DNA of 64,000 nucleotides from an uncultured Kordiimonas sp. GTDB taxonomy: Bacteria > Pseudomonadota > Alphaproteobacteria > Sphingomonadales > Kordiimonadaceae. Below the pieces are notes generated by a model. It was not told the DNA's origin. It saw nothing but the letters and a program-made list of their open reading frames with translations, and did not search any database. The number at the start of each line of letters is the position of its first letter. The first letter of the stretch is position 1. Shown piece after piece: positions 32,433-40,518 of this stretch. Made by a program: the position numbers and the translations under genes. The stretch is from the NCBI GenBank assembly GCA_947500295.1, contig CANMRM010000001.1:992001-1056000 (forward strand), read 5' to 3'.

Positions 32433-33089
32433 CTATGGGAAATTGGGACGATCGAGCCCGAAGTGCGTGGACAGATAGTCGGCGATAATGTCGGCAAGGT
32501 CATCTTCTATCGGGTCCATGCCCTGTTCGTCCACCATCCATTCTATGGTTTCCAGCCACCCGTCTTTGTCCAGGCCCTGCTGCACCACAAGCTTGATTGA
32601 ATGACAGCTTGCGCAGCCATCAAACGTCTCCTGTTTCCCCGGTCCCTCTGGCAGTAAGGCCAGGTCAGGGTCCGGCGCCATCGGAACAGCCTCTGTCTCG
32701 CTACTGCTCATAGTCTGGCGTTTCAGCCAGTCAATAAGTAGCTGACGATCTTCAGTGTTCCTAATGCCGGCAAAGGCCATTCGGGTGCCGCGCGCGAATG
32801 TCCGCGGGGACAATAGATATTGATCAATATTTTCGTCGGTCCAGCGTCCTTCGAGGGCGAGCAGTGCATCGCTATACCGGAAATCATCGCGGCTCGCGAT
32901 ATCGCGCTCGAAAACCCCGAACAGGTTTGGTCCGACCCGGTTTGGGCCACCTTCCGTCAAGGTATGGCAGGCGGCGCAGCGACGAAACAGTCGCTCGGCC
33001 TTTGCATCATCCTGTGCGATTGCCGTCGGGACATAAGATGTCAGGCTTAAAAGACAGACAGCGGCGGCTTTGGCAAAAAACTTCAACAT
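32433..33089 (-). CDS. Diheme c-type cytochrome, partner of the sulfite dehydrogenase
   Basis: An exported 218-residue cytochrome. The signal peptide ends TAIAQ. Two heme-binding sites are clear: CAACH at 38-42, with axial-ligand candidate M104 in GTRMAFAG, and CASCH at 159-163. The second domain is short and acidic. It lies 15 bases after the molybdoenzyme gene and probably accepts its electrons. Its two hemes differ from the monoheme SorB described for SorAB and recall diheme SoxD, although it is shorter than SoxD. Confidence 0.88.
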   Translation of the reverse strand: MLKFFAKAAAVCLLSLTSYVPTAIAQDDAKAERLFRRCAACHTLTEGGPNRVGPNLFGVFERDIASRDDFRYSDALLALEGRWTDENIDQYLLSPRTFARGTRMAFAGIRNTEDRQLLIDWLKRQTMSSSETEAVPMAPDPDLALLPEGPGKQETFDGCASCHSIKLVVQQGLDKDGWLETIEWMVDEQGMDPIEDDLADIIADYLSTHFGLDRPNFP

Positions 33090-33104
33090 GGATCAGGTCT
33101 CAAC

Positions 33105-34406
33105 TCAGGCAACAGTGACGGCGATACGGTGAAAGCTGTTGTTCAGATACCCTTTTGGGTTCCAGTCGATCGCGAAGGGTTGCATACGGCCATTGGCGTC
33201 AGTCGCCCGCGCCCATATTTCGTAATACCCAGCTTCAGGTAGAGCCACCGTTGTGCGCCAGCGCTGCCAGGCGCCTTTGTTGGCGGGTGCGGAAAGATCG
33301 GCGCGCTGCCACGTGGCGCCAAAGTCATAGGAAATGTCGACAGCATCAACAGTTGTGTCCCCAGCCCAGGCTTGTCCACGTACCTCGAAGCTTCGCTCCG
33401 CGTTCGCCTGTCCGGTTTCAGGTGAGGTGATCAGAGACTTCACCGGCATAGCCTCAATAATCTTGAAGTCCTCTTTGGGGACCCTGGTGCCAGGTGCCAC
33501 AGGATACTCCGGCACACGGTATGACGTGCCCGTCATTTTCGCGCCGTCATGCACCTGGTCCCGCAGCCAGATGCGCGTCAACCACTTCTGGGAACAGCTG
33601 CCGGGCCAGCCAGGTACCACCAGCCGCAAGGGCGCCCCGTTCATGGGATGAATGTCGCCGCCATTCTGGCCAAACGCGATCAGATTGGCATCGTCCATTG
33701 CCTTGGAGACAGGCATGCCGCGTGAAATGGGCATTTTGTCCGACTTGCCGGAAAGGTGAATGTCTGAACCTTCATGCGCGGTGTAAACGGCGTTGTCTTG
33801 TATGCCTGCCGCTTTCAGCACGTCGCTAAGCCGGACACCGGTCCATTCAGAACACCCAACCGCGCCGTACGTCCATTGGTTGCCGCGTGCAGGAGGGTTG
33901 AACATGGCACGCCCGTTGCCACCACACTCGATCACCAAGCGGCTGGTGACGACTTCAAATTGTTGTCGCAAATCCGCAATCGACAAGGTAAGCGGCCGAT
34001 CCACAAATCCGTCAATTGTTAATTGCCATGTATCCGGGTTCATATCCGCCGGGGGCAATCCGTTATTGCGGACGAAGTGACGGCCTTTGGGGGTCACCTC
34101 GTCGTCTAGCAGATGCGCGGGCGTTTCCGCGTTCAGGGGTCGGTCATTGAGGAGCGTAAGACCATCTTTGCCATCCAGCACTGATGACTGCGCCAGTGCT
34201 GCCGGTATGAGGCCTGCTGGCATGTTGCGATGATAGGGAATTGCGGCACCGACCATGGTTCCGAGTGCTGCCAGGCCCATGTTTTTCAGGAACCCGCGTC
34301 GGTCCGAGTTGGCAACACGCCCAAAAAGGTCTTTTTCTGCACCTTCAGGACCGTGCGGATGGTCGTGATAAAAGCGGGTGATCGGGGTGGGGCGCTTGTA
34401 AGCCAT
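33105..34406 (-). CDS. Periplasmic molybdopterin sulfite dehydrogenase, SorA/SoxC-type
   Basis: Oxidises sulfite (or sulfane sulfur, in SoxC) with a molybdenum cofactor and passes electrons to a cytochrome. The 433-residue product carries a Tat signal around residues 34-42 (SDRRGFLKN). The molybdenum ligand is probably Cys161 in ECGGNGRAMFNPP. A second cysteine, in GCSEWTGV, and MNGAPLRLVVPGWPGSCSQKWL are also family features. ATG 34406 is chosen because GAGGAA is upstream; both lie inside a 13-bp perfect inverted repeat. An in-frame ATG four codons earlier is possible. The enzyme type (Sor or Sox) is not decided by sequence alone. Confidence 0.88.
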   Translation of the reverse strand: MAYKRPTPITRFYHDHPHGPEGAEKDLFGRVANSDRRGFLKNMGLAALGTMVGAAIPYHRNMPAGLIPAALAQSSVLDGKDGLTLLNDRPLNAETPAHLLDDEVTPKGRHFVRNNGLPPADMNPDTWQLTIDGFVDRPLTLSIADLRQQFEVVTSRLVIECGGNGRAMFNPPARGNQWTYGAVGCSEWTGVRLSDVLKAAGIQDNAVYTAHEGSDIHLSGKSDKMPISRGMPVSKAMDDANLIAFGQNGGDIHPMNGAPLRLVVPGWPGSCSQKWLTRIWLRDQVHDGAKMTGTSYRVPEYPVAPGTRVPKEDFKIIEAMPVKSLITSPETGQANAERSFEVRGQAWAGDTTVDAVDISYDFGATWQRADLSAPANKGAWQRWRTTVALPEAGYYEIWARATDANGRMQPFAIDWNPKGYLNNSFHRIAVTVA

Positions 34407-34445
34407 AGCATTCCTCATAACACGCAGTTCAAGAGGAATGCTATG
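34404..34445 (-). promoter_or_regulatory. 13-bp perfect inverted repeat covering the SD and start codon of the sulfite dehydrogenase gene
   Basis: On the minus strand, CATAGCATTCCTC (34445-34433) is an exact complement of GAGGAATGCTATG (34416-34404), with a 16-base loop. The 3' arm contains both the GAGGA ribosome binding site and the ATG start. In the mRNA this hairpin would hide both, and as DNA it could be a dimeric repressor or activator site. Confidence 0.75.
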
Positions 34446-34516
34446 CTCTAAAAATACCAAAAACAAGAAGCTTACTGCTTGCTTTTGGCATCAACACAGA
34501 AAGTTGAATTCAATAA

Positions 34517-35107
34517 CTACCTGCCGGAGGCGTTCAGCTGATCCAGAGTTTCGATCAGGACTTCGGGTTCCGGGCGTTCACGGTAGCTTTCGCGCAGAAG
34601 TTTGGCAGTGATTTTTTTGTCCCGATCCAGAACGAGAATAACCGGGTACGGCACACCGTGCGCATAATGACCTTCTTCATAGTGCGGGTTTCTGAGCCCG
34701 AGTGCATCAATCATTTTTGAGCCCTCGTCAGACAACAGCGGAAACCCAACCCGCCATTTCTTGTGAAAGCGTTCAAGATCTCGCACTTTGTCATAGCTGA
34801 TGGCGGCAATGCCGTAGCCGCGTTCCTTGATGGCTTCCAGGGCATTTGAATTGAGGTCGATAAGCTGCATCTGGCAAAAGGGGCACCATTTTGCTGACCG
34901 ATAAAAAACAACGACAGCACCGTTCTCGCCGACAAAACTGTCAAAGTCCTGTTGTTGGCCCAACTGGTCAGGTGCTGTAAAGTCCAGTGACAATACAGTT
35001 CCGACATCCGGTCCGATGTTTTGGTCGGGCGCGTGTTGTGCACCCGCTGCCACTGTGACTGAAATGCATGCCGCCAGCGCGACCACTACCTTATGAAAAT
35101 ACTGCAT
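34517..35107 (-). CDS. Exported thioredoxin-fold peroxiredoxin-like protein
   Basis: A 196-residue periplasmic protein with a signal peptide (MQYFHKVVVALAACISVTVA) and an AhpC/TSA-like thioredoxin fold. The active site is WCPFC in VVFYRSAKWCPFCQMQL; the CxxC arrangement is like thiol-disulfide redoxins rather than classical 2-Cys peroxiredoxins. The fold continues to PYPVILVLDRDKK with the expected cis-proline. AGGGG precedes the ATG. It sits close to a sulfite dehydrogenase and a DoxX protein, suggesting an envelope redox role, which is inference. Confidence 0.85.
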   Translation of the reverse strand: MQYFHKVVVALAACISVTVAAGAQHAPDQNIGPDVGTVLSLDFTAPDQLGQQQDFDSFVGENGAVVVFYRSAKWCPFCQMQLIDLNSNALEAIKERGYGIAAISYDKVRDLERFHKKWRVGFPLLSDEGSKMIDALGLRNPHYEEGHYAHGVPYPVILVLDRDKKITAKLLRESYRERPEPEVLIETLDQLNASGR

Positions 35108-35205
35108 GAGACCCCTTAAACCTTAGTTCTAAACTTCGGGCGGGACTATGCCATGAGAATATTTCACTTGGCAGTCACAAGGTTGTGTAGTCGCAAAATG
35201 TGAAT

Positions 35206-35234
35206 TCACCCCCGGCGTTATTCGCCGAGGGTGA
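35206..35234 (-). terminator. Possible terminator hairpin after the DoxX gene
   Basis: CACCCCCGGCG (35207-35217) and CGCCGAGGGTG (35223-35233) pair over ten bases with one C-A mismatch and a five-base loop. On the minus strand it lies 24 bases after the DoxX stop, but no strong T run follows, so termination is uncertain. Confidence 0.4.
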
Positions 35235-35257
35235 CGGTATTGGTTTTATTTTTCGGC

Positions 35258-35710
35258 CTAAAGACGGATGCCGAGCGCGTTGTCCAGGCTGTATTTGCCA
35301 CCACCTTTGGTCACAAACCCCAGCGCCAGAATTGCCCAGAGAACAGGGTATTCCCATCCGCCATCTGTCCAGAAAAACCCTGCACTGAAATGGAAAGTAC
35401 TGGCGACCAGCAACATCACCGTGACGGCAAGTGCGAATGCTCGCGTCAGCAATCCGAGAACAAGCGCCAGGCCGCCAAAAAACTCAACCGATCCCGCGCT
35501 GAGCGCGGCAAGGTAGCCGTGAGAAAAACCAAGTTGGGCCTGAAAGAATTGACCGGTGGCATCCAAGCCGTATCCGCCAAACCAGCCAAACAGTTTTTGT
35601 GCCCCATGCGGCACCAGAAAAGCCCCCGCTGCGATGCGGACTAAGGTATCGGTGATGTCGGTACCCTTCGCCAGGTCCTCGATGCGGGATGCTAATGATT
35701 GTGCAGTCAT
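35258..35710 (-). CDS. DoxX family membrane protein
   Basis: A 150-residue protein of four membrane helices. The DoxX signature GAFLVPHGAQKLFGWFGGYG comes after the first helix, then FFGGLALVLGLLTR and the tail SLDNALGIRL. DoxX proteins are membrane parts of quinone- or thiol-linked redox systems, but this group has no fixed function. GGAG seven bases upstream supports the start. It is the first of the minus-strand genes here. Confidence 0.88.
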   Translation of the reverse strand: MTAQSLASRIEDLAKGTDITDTLVRIAAGAFLVPHGAQKLFGWFGGYGLDATGQFFQAQLGFSHGYLAALSAGSVEFFGGLALVLGLLTRAFALAVTVMLLVASTFHFSAGFFWTDGGWEYPVLWAILALGFVTKGGGKYSLDNALGIRL

Positions 35711-35960
35711 ATCTATTCTCCATGTCCGGGCCCTGAAAGCGGCCCTGCGTTATTGCGTGAGACACAGGTAATGGACAATTTAAGCAACGGAAATTGTTAA
35801 TTATCGGCATCTGCGTTCGCAAAATGGCAACATGGGATCAGATCTGAATGCAGTTTGCCGGTACGTCCCGGCGTTACAGTCATTTGAACCGTCAATCTGG
35901 TGGAGAGCATTCTCCCGATTTACTTTTTCAGGATGCCGAAAGGTCAACGGGAGTATTGAA

Positions 35961-36554
35961 ATGACACGCCTCTTAAAAGCTGCAATCGGTCTTGTGATGG
36001 TAACTCAGGTTTTGACGGTTGGCTCGACCGCTCAACAGGAAATACCACCAATAAAATTCCAACCTGAAATTGATAGCCCGATCGCGGCGCGCAACCCGAA
36101 TGCTCCAGCTGCTTTGGAGCAGTTTGATTTTGTCATAGGGGACTGGGATGCGACGATTACCTGGCAGGCGCAAGGCGGTGAACCTCTGACCTATAAGGCA
36201 AAATGGCATAATCACTGGGTTATTGACGGGCAGGTTGTGATGCAGGAATGGCGAGGTCCGTTCATTACAGGCGCGGAACTTCGCGCATTTGATGCCGGGG
36301 CTGGATCATGGAGTGGGCAAAATATCTATCCGGGGTCTCCTGACCCCTGGCAAAAAACCACTGCCGAATTCAAAGATGGCCAGATGGTTGTTGTGATTCA
36401 TGATGTAAAGGACGAACGAGGTACCTTCCTCAACCGGGAGACCTACTTTGATATCTCCAATGACAGTTTTCGGATGAAGTCGGATCGATCCTATGACGAC
36501 GGGACAACATGGGAAAAAGGCTCCTATGAGATGATCTGTCACAGGACCAAATAA
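35961..36554 (+). CDS. Exported lipocalin-like protein, DUF1579-type
   Basis: The 197-residue product has a signal peptide ([20 protein letters not shown]) and a beta-rich domain beginning [17 protein letters not shown], a pattern like DUF1579 and related lipocalin-like proteins. The end reads [20 protein letters not shown] 35961 (CGGGAG seven bases upstream) is preferred; the frame stays open 43 codons upstream without support. Binding of a small hydrophobic ligand is possible but unproven. Confidence 0.7.
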
Positions 36555-38114: not shown

Positions 38115-38230
38115 ACTATCTGGGTAGCACCGTAACCTTCTGGTTGCGTGTCATAATTTCGCCCTTAAACTAGGCCTTGCTGGGGGTGACCCGGGATTGC
38201 TCCCCAGCCAATCGGGGGAAGGCCAAGTTT

Positions 38231-39424
38231 ATGCAAAAACCGCAGAAGTTTATGAACCGCATGCTGTTGTTTCTGGCAGCTGTCATCATCTTGGGCGGCT
38301 TGTTGCGCGGTCCTCTCCTTGCCGCCTTTTCTGCCAATATCGTCCTCAATGGTGTTATTGCGGCGACGTTGCTGATCGGCGTGATTTTCGCGTTCCGCCG
38401 GGTCGTTGACCTCAAACCGGAAATTGAATGGATCAAAGCCTTCAAGCGGCACGAGAGCGCGGCAAGCTCGGTGACGCCGCGGTTGATGGCACCGGCTGCG
38501 GCATTACTCTCGGCGCAGGAAGAAGGCAGCATGCGACTGTCGACACTGTCCATGCGTTCCGTGCTGGATGGTATTGCCTCGCGTCTTGAGGAAAGCCGCG
38601 AGATCAGCAGGTATTTTACCCAGCTTCTCATTTTTCTGGGTCTTCTCGGTACTTTTTGGGGGCTTCTTGGCACGATTGGCGCCATTGGCGGCACGATTAA
38701 CGGTCTTTCGGTCGATGGCAGCGACATGGCGCTGATGTTTGACGAGTTGAAAGCAGGGCTGGAAGCGCCTCTGTCCGGCATGGGAACCGCATTTTCTAGC
38801 TCGCTTTTTGGCCTGGCCGGCAGCTTGATCATGGGGTTCATGGACTTGCAGGCGACACAGTCTCAAACCCGGTTCTATAATGATGTGGAGGACTGGCTGG
38901 CGTCGGTTACGCATTTGTCGCGGAGCGAGGTCGCCGAGGGTGTTGCGAGCCCTAGCTCATACATGACCGCCCTGATGGAACAAACCGCCGATGGCATCGA
39001 CCGGCTTCAGCGTACCCTCAAGCAATCAGAGGATGCACGCACCGGGGCGCAGCAGACGATGACAGTGATTGCCGAATCCCTTGCGGCGCTTGCCGACCGA
39101 ATGGATGCGCAAGCGGCGCATCAGGCGAAAAGCGAAGAAAGCGAGCGCGCGCTTGCAGCGGCTATCTCCCAACTGGCTCAATCGCAAATTGACGCGGCTC
39201 AAAAAGAAACGCCAGCGCCAGCACCGGCAATGGATGACACCACCAAAGGTCATATCCGTAACCTGGATGTCGGCATCAAGCGTCTTATTGATGAACAATC
39301 GCGCTCCAGCCAGACCTTGTCCGAAGAGCTGCGGAGCGAGCTGAAACTTCTGGCGCGAACCATTTCTGCAGGCCTTGATGCCCGGCCAAAAGGCGGAGAT
39401 GAAGGCGGCGGAGGAGCATTCTGA
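38231..39424 (+). CDS. MotA/TolQ/ExbB-like proton-channel protein
   Basis: The 397-residue product has an N-terminal pair of helices (about 10-32 and 38-56) and two more near 135-160 (FLGLLGTFWGLLGTIGAIGG) and 185-215 (FSSSLFGLAGSLIMGFMD). The last two match the conserved core of MotA/TolQ/ExbB proteins. The C-terminal ~180 residues are cytoplasmic and coiled-coil (EQTADGIDRLQRTLKQSED). GGGGGAAGG precedes ATG 38231. The stop overlaps the next gene by one base. The pair looks like a proton-driven machine, not the flagellar stator genes. Confidence 0.85.
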   Translation: MQKPQKFMNRMLLFLAAVIILGGLLRGPLLAAFSANIVLNGVIAATLLIGVIFAFRRVVDLKPEIEWIKAFKRHESAASSVTPRLMAPAAALLSAQEEGSMRLSTLSMRSVLDGIASRLEESREISRYFTQLLIFLGLLGTFWGLLGTIGAIGGTINGLSVDGSDMALMFDELKAGLEAPLSGMGTAFSSSLFGLAGSLIMGFMDLQATQSQTRFYNDVEDWLASVTHLSRSEVAEGVASPSSYMTALMEQTADGIDRLQRTLKQSEDARTGAQQTMTVIAESLAALADRMDAQAAHQAKSEESERALAAAISQLAQSQIDAAQKETPAPAPAMDDTTKGHIRNLDVGIKRLIDEQSRSSQTLSEELRSELKLLARTISAGLDARPKGGDEGGGGAF

Positions 39425-40518
39425 TGATTGCCGCGCGCAGGCGGATTGGGGGGCAGGCCCCGGATAACAGCTGGCCGGGTTTTGTTGATGCGCTATCAAC
39501 CCTGCTGCTGGTGATTATTTTCCTGCTTTCCATGTTTGTGCTGGCGCAGTTTTTTCTTGGTCAGGCTTTGTCGGGACGCGAACAGGCGCTTGCTGAGCTC
39601 CGGGGGCAGGTAGCCCAACTTGGCAATCTTTTGCGACTGGAACAGCAGGCCAATGCATCGCTGAGAGACAATATGACGGAACTCGCGGCCTCATTGACTG
39701 CAGCCAATTCTGACCGTGACCGGCTTGGGGCGGATTTGGATTCTGCCAGGCAAAGTCTGGAAACATCGGAGGCATCGCTCGCAGAAATCACCGCGGCCCG
39801 CGATGCGCTGGCGGCGCGCAGCCGGGAACTGGAAGAACAATATGCAGCGTCATCAACGGCCTTGACAGAAGAGCAGATATTGTCGCGCCGCGCGCGCGAG
39901 CAGGTGAATGTGCTGGAACGCAATGTCACCGCCCTGAGGGAACAGCTGACCCGCCTGGAAGCCGCGCTTGAGGCCAGCGAGGAGAGGGATCAGCGCAATC
40001 AGGCGGTGATCGTTGATATGGGGCGGCGGCTCAACCGTGCTCTTGCCAGCAAAGTTGAAGAACTGGCGGGGTATCGGTCCGAGTTCTTCGGCAGGCTTAA
40101 AGAGGTATTGTCTAATCGACCTGAAATTCGCATCGAAGGGGACAGGTTTGTCTTCGCCAGTGAGCTGTTGTTTGCCAGCGGCCAGTCAAACCTTGGGCCG
40201 GAAGGTAGGGCGGAACTACGGAAATTTGCGGAAACCCTGATTGCCATCTCACAGGAAATTCCGGGCGAGTTGCCTTGGATATTGCGTGTTGATGGCCATA
40301 CCGACAAACGCCCGATTTCGACCGCAACATTTGCAAGCAACTGGGAACTGTCGAGCGCGCGAGCGATCAGTGTGGTGCGCTTTCTGATATCAGCCGGTGT
40401 GCCGCCGGAACGTCTGGCTGCAGCAGGCTTCGGTGAATTTCAGCCGATTGATCCTGCAGACAACATATTTGCTTACAGCCGAAACAGGCGGATTGAGATG
40501 CGGCTTACACAGCGCTGA
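39424..40518 (+). CDS. MotB/OmpA-like peptidoglycan-binding protein
   Basis: A 364-residue partner of the preceding MotA-like protein. D22 in GFVDALSTLL precedes a single membrane helix (about 25-48), the position of the proton-binding Asp in MotB-type stators. A long coiled coil spans roughly 50-205, and the OmpA-like domain (about 240-364) ends LSSARAISVVRFLISAGVPP, GFGEFQPIDPADN and NRRIEMRL, with the conserved peptidoglycan-binding motifs. The pair probably spans the envelope from the inner membrane to the cell wall; its task is unknown. Confidence 0.88.
   Translation: MIAARRRIGGQAPDNSWPGFVDALSTLLLVIIFLLSMFVLAQFFLGQALSGREQALAELRGQVAQLGNLLRLEQQANASLRDNMTELAASLTAANSDRDRLGADLDSARQSLETSEASLAEITAARDALAARSRELEEQYAASSTALTEEQILSRRAREQVNVLERNVTALREQLTRLEAALEASEERDQRNQAVIVDMGRRLNRALASKVEELAGYRSEFFGRLKEVLSNRPEIRIEGDRFVFASELLFASGQSNLGPEGRAELRKFAETLIAISQEIPGELPWILRVDGHTDKRPISTATFASNWELSSARAISVVRFLISAGVPPERLAAAGFGEFQPIDPADNIFAYSRNRRIEMRLTQR

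Follow-up and report, generated by a model that had tools for sequence, protein, structure and literature searches.

A perfect inverted repeat at the start of a Kordiimonas sorA-like gene: a candidate translational block on read-through messages

We consider the start of a sulfite-oxidizing enzyme gene (sorA) in the window, a stretch of 64,000 nucleotides of DNA from an uncultured marine Kordiimonas sp. A 13-bp perfect inverted repeat at this site appears to join two elements: its 5' arm would be the -10 box and discriminator of the sorA promoter, and its 3' arm the Shine-Dalgarno (SD) sequence and start codon. RNA polymerase at the sorA promoter would start in the loop, and the resulting mRNA, with a leader of about 24 nt and no 5' arm, would be translated. 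Transcripts reading through from the redoxin gene upstream would carry both arms, fold, hide the SD and AUG, and give little sorA protein, and the hairpin would in this way couple the translation of sorA to its own promoter. A block on read-through messages of the T4 lysozyme type, here in a chromosomal metabolic gene, is the best reading of this arrangement, with a probability of about 0.45. We also hold, tentatively and at somewhat below even odds, that the core promoter is embedded in the anti-Shine-Dalgarno arm, that translation reports the promoter from which a message came, and that the promoter and ribosome binding site (RBS) of Kordiimonas sorA co-evolve.

The sorA gene, its neighbors and the species compared

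The sorA product (433 residues) matches PF00174 and PF03404 above cut-off. Its scores are under the NCBIfam equivalog cut-offs (SorA, 241.5 against 600 bits; SorT, 201.7 against 570; SoxC-type, 213.2 against 420), and the product is therefore named only "SorA/SorT-like". The genes needed for the argument are the following.

33105 to 34406, minus strand: gene of the SorA/SorT-like molybdopterin sulfite-oxidizing enzyme (Oxidored_molyb and Mo-co_dimer)
34517 to 35107, minus strand: AhpC/TSA-type redoxin gene, upstream of sorA in six of six species; a possible source of read-through
32433 to 33089, minus strand: c-type cytochrome gene, downstream of sorA

A DoxX gene sits farther upstream, beyond the redoxin gene. 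No regulator or sigma-factor Pfam domain is found in the ten neighboring open reading frames (ORFs), three of which have no Pfam match of any kind. At 38177-40518, an ORF with a weak ZorA-like match (24.2 bits against a cut-off of 500) comes before an OmpA-family ORF; the two may form a motor-stator-like pair.

Out of 19 genomes of the genus, six species have both a sorA orthologue of at least 81% identity and its upstream sequence: the window species, G013, G003, G018, G014 and G015. G009 is left out, as it offers a gene fragment with no upstream sequence, and the sole match in each of G002, G004, G012 and G016 is a gene of 59-60% identity that lacks the conserved upstream block described below. 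Identity at fourfold-degenerate sites of sorA is 28-39% in every one of the 15 species pairs, so these sites are saturated. The redoxin gene is co-oriented with sorA and precedes it in all six species.

The inverted repeat and its predicted folding

The original prediction described a 13-bp perfect hairpin with a 16-base loop at 34404-34445, and both coordinates and complementarity are confirmed. On the minus strand CATAGCATTCCTC (34445-34433) is followed by 16 nt and then by GAGGAATGCTATG (34416-34404), and the arms (34404-34416 and 34433-34445) are 100% complementary.

34433 to 34445, minus strand: 5' arm CATAGCATTCCTC, which holds the predicted -10 box and discriminator; CATAGCATT in six of six species
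34417 to 34432, minus strand: 16-nt loop, differing in sequence between species; rule-based predicted transcription start at about 34430
34404 to 34416, minus strand: 3' arm GAGGAATGCTATG, with the Shine-Dalgarno GAGGA, 5 nt, and the start codon ATG (34406-34404)

The second arm is, as had been proposed, the RBS and ATG of the molybdoenzyme gene (GAGGA and the ATG at 34406-34404). A second in-frame ATG (34418-34416) lies 12 nt upstream of this likely start, overlaps the arm by one base and has no SD; it is also present in G013 and G003, lies 15 nt upstream in G018, and is missing in G014 and G015. Translation starting at ATG 34418 was considered and rejected: this start lacks an SD and is possible in four species, and stop codons close it in G014 and G015. 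The mirrored GAGGAATGCTATG was likewise rejected as the start of a plus-strand gene, its ATG running into CTC TAA (by eye).

Folding of 91 nt of RNA around the repeat gives -26.7 kcal/mol (z -3.1; equalled by 1 of 200 shuffles). The thermodynamic fold of the leader, a check that had been suggested together with the hairpin, gives -24.8 kcal/mol for 57 nt (z -6.4; equalled by none of 200 shuffles). In window-species RNA that has both arms, the predicted probability of being unpaired is 0.00 for the SD and 0.15 for the AUG. The earlier idea that the hairpin blocks initiation in RNA thus stands in part: the predicted fold buries the SD and most of the AUG where both arms are present, but the gene's own mRNA is predicted to lack the 5' arm.

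Could such a repeat be expected by chance? Perfect inverted repeats with arms of at least 13 and loops of 3-30 number seven in 464 kb of the same genome, the sorA repeat included, and none in five Markov-simulated copies of these 464 kb. The perfect stem covering the SD is 13 bp at sorA, and the runner-up among 385 genes has 8 bp; a second sample of 330 genes holds one other 13-bp SD stem (5-nt loop, 3' arm ending at -9), followed by one of 9. The gene starts in the two samples (715 in total) were picked by a simple script rather than from annotation. With its SD stem matched by one other among 715 sampled genes, the sorA hairpin is real and beyond chance, as first supposed.

A 13-bp palindrome with a 5-nt spacer also reaches the SD of a TonB-family gene (locus L183, G000:C3:90001-110000, positions 2457-2487). 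A genome search that allowed up to 2 mismatches gives a single site for its core, and the palindrome is possibly a repressor site.

The extreme length of the stem over the SD among the 715 genes counts against the main rival of the read-through block, a serious one to which we allow an appreciable minority chance. By this rival the promoter keeps the 5' arm, the RBS and start codon keep the 3' arm, and the complementarity between them is a coincidence that has no function, or a trivial one if read-through is scarce.

A predicted promoter inside the 5' arm

Common to all six species, despite the saturation of the fourfold-degenerate sites, are CTTGTYTTTG and AGAGCATAGCATT at fixed spacing. The pattern CTTGTNTTT-N11-AGCATAGCAT, at 0 mismatches, occurs in six of the 19 genus genomes, once in each and always directly upstream of sorA. 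The conserved block starts 61-62 nt upstream of the projected sorA start. We read it as a predicted sigma-70-type promoter with its -10 box within the 5' arm.

34461 to 34466, minus strand: predicted -35 element TTGTTT; TTGTYT-N17-TAGCAT is free of indels in six of six species
34438 to 34443, minus strand: predicted -10 element TAGCAT, inside the 5' arm and 17 nt from TTGTTT

TTGTTT and TAGCAT agree with 7 of 12 sigma-70 consensus positions (hand count), a weak match, and at its thresholds a consensus scan of 33000-36000 gave no sigma-70-type site where 2.0 were expected; the promoter call therefore rests on conservation and spacing. Over 511 upstream regions of the window genome, TTG...TA...T peaks at a spacing of 17 (41), followed by 16 (35); the other spacings from 11 to 23 give 11-27, and the antisense strand gives 25 at spacing 16 and 24 at 17. 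These simple spacing counts are used because an EM promoter model (265 upstream regions) was rejected: the motif on which it settled (prior 0.05) was not that of a promoter, its likelihood being 8.4 where simulated sequence gave 7.4.

In G018, G014 and G015 the 3' arm has changed but the 5' arm still reads CATAGCATT, and so the latter appears to be kept for more than the long pairing. An arm that is invariant whether or not the pairing holds is also a point for coincidence.

Where would the transcript begin? Taking the first purine at least 6 nt past the -10 box as the start, the predicted position is 6-8 nt past the box and within the loop in all six species; in the window species it is about 34430 and gives a 24-nt leader. 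With a start in the loop, the gene's own mRNA would therefore lack the 5' arm and be unable to form the hairpin, and the hairpin would therefore be limited to transcripts entering from the redoxin gene. The original prediction had favored a switch in the gene's own mRNA (answering to a translation factor, small RNA, or metal or sulfite signal), and had named a transcription start in the 5' arm or downstream of it as evidence against it. The start that we predict at about 34430 is of this kind, and the predicted own mRNA, lacking the 5' arm, does not bear the switch out. A switch of this type (thermosensor, small RNA or metabolite) would need an unrecognized promoter farther upstream, and we consider it quite improbable. 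The strong predicted fold over SD and AUG speaks for it; however, the block kept upstream of the stem in six of six species is promoter-like and overlaps the 5' arm, the loop and much of the outer stem are not conserved, and the 64-kb window has no match to Rfam families at gathering scores.

The same dyad can also be viewed as DNA. A dimeric repressor could bind both arms across the transcription start, an operator such as the original prediction had allowed for, and the center of the dyad near +6 of the predicted start agrees with this, +6 being close to the usual position of a repressor. The palindrome at the SD of the TonB-family gene gives the idea a companion in the same genome. Against it, the symmetric cores lie at slightly different distances from each other (16 in four species, 17 in G014, and 15 or 16 in G015 depending on the register), three species have lost the symmetry beyond the core, and a genome search that allowed up to 3 mismatches found the dyad nowhere else. 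Single-arm matches at up to 2 mismatches number 25 (both arms counted) against about 27 at random by hand estimate (reversed control, 2), and the ten neighboring ORFs examined hold no regulator domain. The slightly varying core gap, the loss of the outer symmetry in three species, and the absence of both a further copy and a neighboring regulator domain make an operator the less likely account; we regard it as unlikely.

Is the pairing of the two arms selected?

The SD can pair with the predicted promoter discriminator in six of six species, over 5-6 bp and at the same place. The pairs are TTCCTC/GAGGAA in two species, TTCCTT/GAGGAA (with one G-U) and TTCCCC/GGGGAA, and in the other species TTTCCC/GGGAAA and TTTCCC/GGGGAA (with one G-U). 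One core pair is doubly changed, being U-A in three species and C-G in three. This persistent pairing, double change included, argues against coincidence. RNAalifold recovers the six-pair core unprompted, alongside two other helices. The duplexes of discriminator and SD from the same species have a mean of -8.3 kcal/mol, against -6.8 for permuted arms; 24 of 720 arm permutations equal the own-species energy.

The controls temper this picture. The covariation score is reached by 53 of 500 shuffles and the count of doubly changed pairs by 309 of 500, and the alignment slid by -3 columns scores above the true register (0.174 against 0.154). The U-A/C-G double change represents one or two events on an unresolved six-species tree. 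Predicted stability is like that of shuffles in G018, G014 and G015 (z -0.3, -1.4 and -0.5), and the 126-nt fold of G015 favors another structure. The search for covariation that had been proposed along with the hairpin therefore yields one U-A/C-G double change, for which the shuffle, slide and permutation controls are weak, and this weakness is a further point for coincidence.

The seven outer pairs also favor it: three are fixed in all six species by the ATG lying opposite the CAT of the -10 region, and G018, G014 and G015 each lack three of the remaining four. Conservation close to the start is ordinary, which again suits coincidence. Identity at -17..-1 in the three near species is 15/17 (by eye), and 6 of 38 other start sites equal it, in a comparison of 39 rows that include sorA, scored by the script at the upstream ATG (9/17). 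We accordingly do not count conservation of the SD arm as proof of the hairpin.

How far does the long stem extend? It is present in three species only. Loss of the repeat in close relatives had been named in the original prediction as a sign against a switch, and what we see is the opposite: the hairpin is kept in the two near relatives of the window species, G013 and G003, the sole change in the arm of G003 breaking one pair. The longest SD stems among 96 rows of SorA homologs are 13 (window), 12 (G013) and 9 (G003), and the 90 rows outside the six Kordiimonas species reach 7 bp at most. The set of 96 was made after removal of four duplicate loci and of any locus that scored under 400 bits or had no usable upstream sequence; it retains at least two pairs that seem to be identical contigs (L011/L085 and L012/L101). 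As far as sampled, the long stem appears confined to the six-species group.

Accessibility of the SD and AUG in two transcript forms

We turn to the read-through block itself and compare by folding two forms of the transcript, RNA from 200 nt upstream and RNA from the predicted start. All values are probabilities of being unpaired (the mean, for the SD) in the order window, G013, G003, G018, G014, G015.

SD, RNA from 200 nt upstream: 0.00, 0.07, 0.00, 0.07, 0.07, 0.20
SD, RNA from predicted start: 0.61, 0.40, 0.65, 0.54, 0.34, 0.31
AUG, RNA from 200 nt upstream: 0.15, 0.00, 0.24, 0.32, 0.45, 0.43
AUG, RNA from predicted start: 0.63, 0.82, 0.07, 0.62, 0.84, 0.01

The SD is freer in the predicted own transcript than in the upstream-started RNA in six of six species. 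The AUG, opposite to expectation, becomes less free when G003 (0.24 to 0.07) and G015 (0.43 to 0.01) are folded from the predicted start.

Sequence upstream of the promoter

Two further features lie between the predicted promoter and the redoxin gene.

34455 to 34490, minus strand: terminator-like AU-rich stem of 13 pairs (and 2 more past an internal mismatch), with the predicted -35 element in its 3' arm and ATTTTT after it
34492 to 34506, minus strand: small dyad CAAC-N7-GTTG, some 69 bp ahead of the predicted start; four of six species keep CAAY-N7-GTT

The run of U after the AU-rich stem is seen in the window species and is missing from the other five (by eye). In the window species this terminator-like stem may already halt read-through from the redoxin gene, which favors coincidence; if the terminator works, sorA is either shielded twice from the redoxin gene or has a second shield that is idle. 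For the CAAC dyad, RNAalifold gives double changes in three of four pairs, in a region where G014 and G015 align poorly. The dyad could be an activator site.

Comparison with known systems

The sorT and sorA genes of Sinorhizobium and Starkeya are described in PMC6527743 and PMC3511301 as being under ECF-sigma control (RpoE4/SigE and RpoE1). Kordiimonas sorA is alike in the predicted promoter control of a sulfite-oxidizing enzyme gene and differs in that the ten ORFs beside it have no sigma-factor domain. An RpoE4-like promoter was considered and rejected, the Kordiimonas block lacking the GAA and GT motifs (by eye).

The transposase of Tn10/IS10 is guarded from external promoters, as read-through transcripts hide its RBS in a fold-back structure. 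Hiding of the RBS in read-through RNA is what the proposed block would share with it; the guarded gene belongs to a mobile element there and to metabolism here. For the ISPpu9 transposase, the structure of the mRNA 5'-UTR is reported to matter (PMC8450116). Among the open-licence papers listed by our searches, we recognized neither this sorA locus nor a T4-type case in a chromosomal metabolic gene.

The nearest known system is that of phage T4. According to PMC3014915, long upstream transcripts of gene e, soc, 49 and I-TevI hold the SD and/or AUG in a helix; gene e transcripts from two late promoters lack the 5' portion of the helix and are translated well; and in related phages the region from which the 5' strand of the helix is transcribed contains a late promoter. 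In our own reading of the T4 e sequence, the helix has AATACCT as its 5' arm, which shares bases with the late box TATAAATA, and AGGTATT as its 3' arm, which adjoins the ATG. Kordiimonas sorA is alike in the predicted pairing of its SD and AUG in upstream-started RNA. It may also be alike in having its near promoter in the DNA of the 5' strand, where the promoter-like block kept in six of six species overlaps the 5' arm. It differs in being a chromosomal metabolic gene with a sigma-70-like promoter and no known timing program, in its stem of 13 bp against about 7 bp in T4 (own reading), and in being known from sequence alone.

If the proposed block is real, it also carries a warning: start-codon hairpins seen in genomes may be missing from the real mRNA, because a promoter may sit in the upstream arm. 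As a prediction, the Kordiimonas layout closely resembles that of T4 gene e, and insulation from a neighbor's transcription, known from phage T4 and from a transposon, would then serve an ordinary chromosomal gene.
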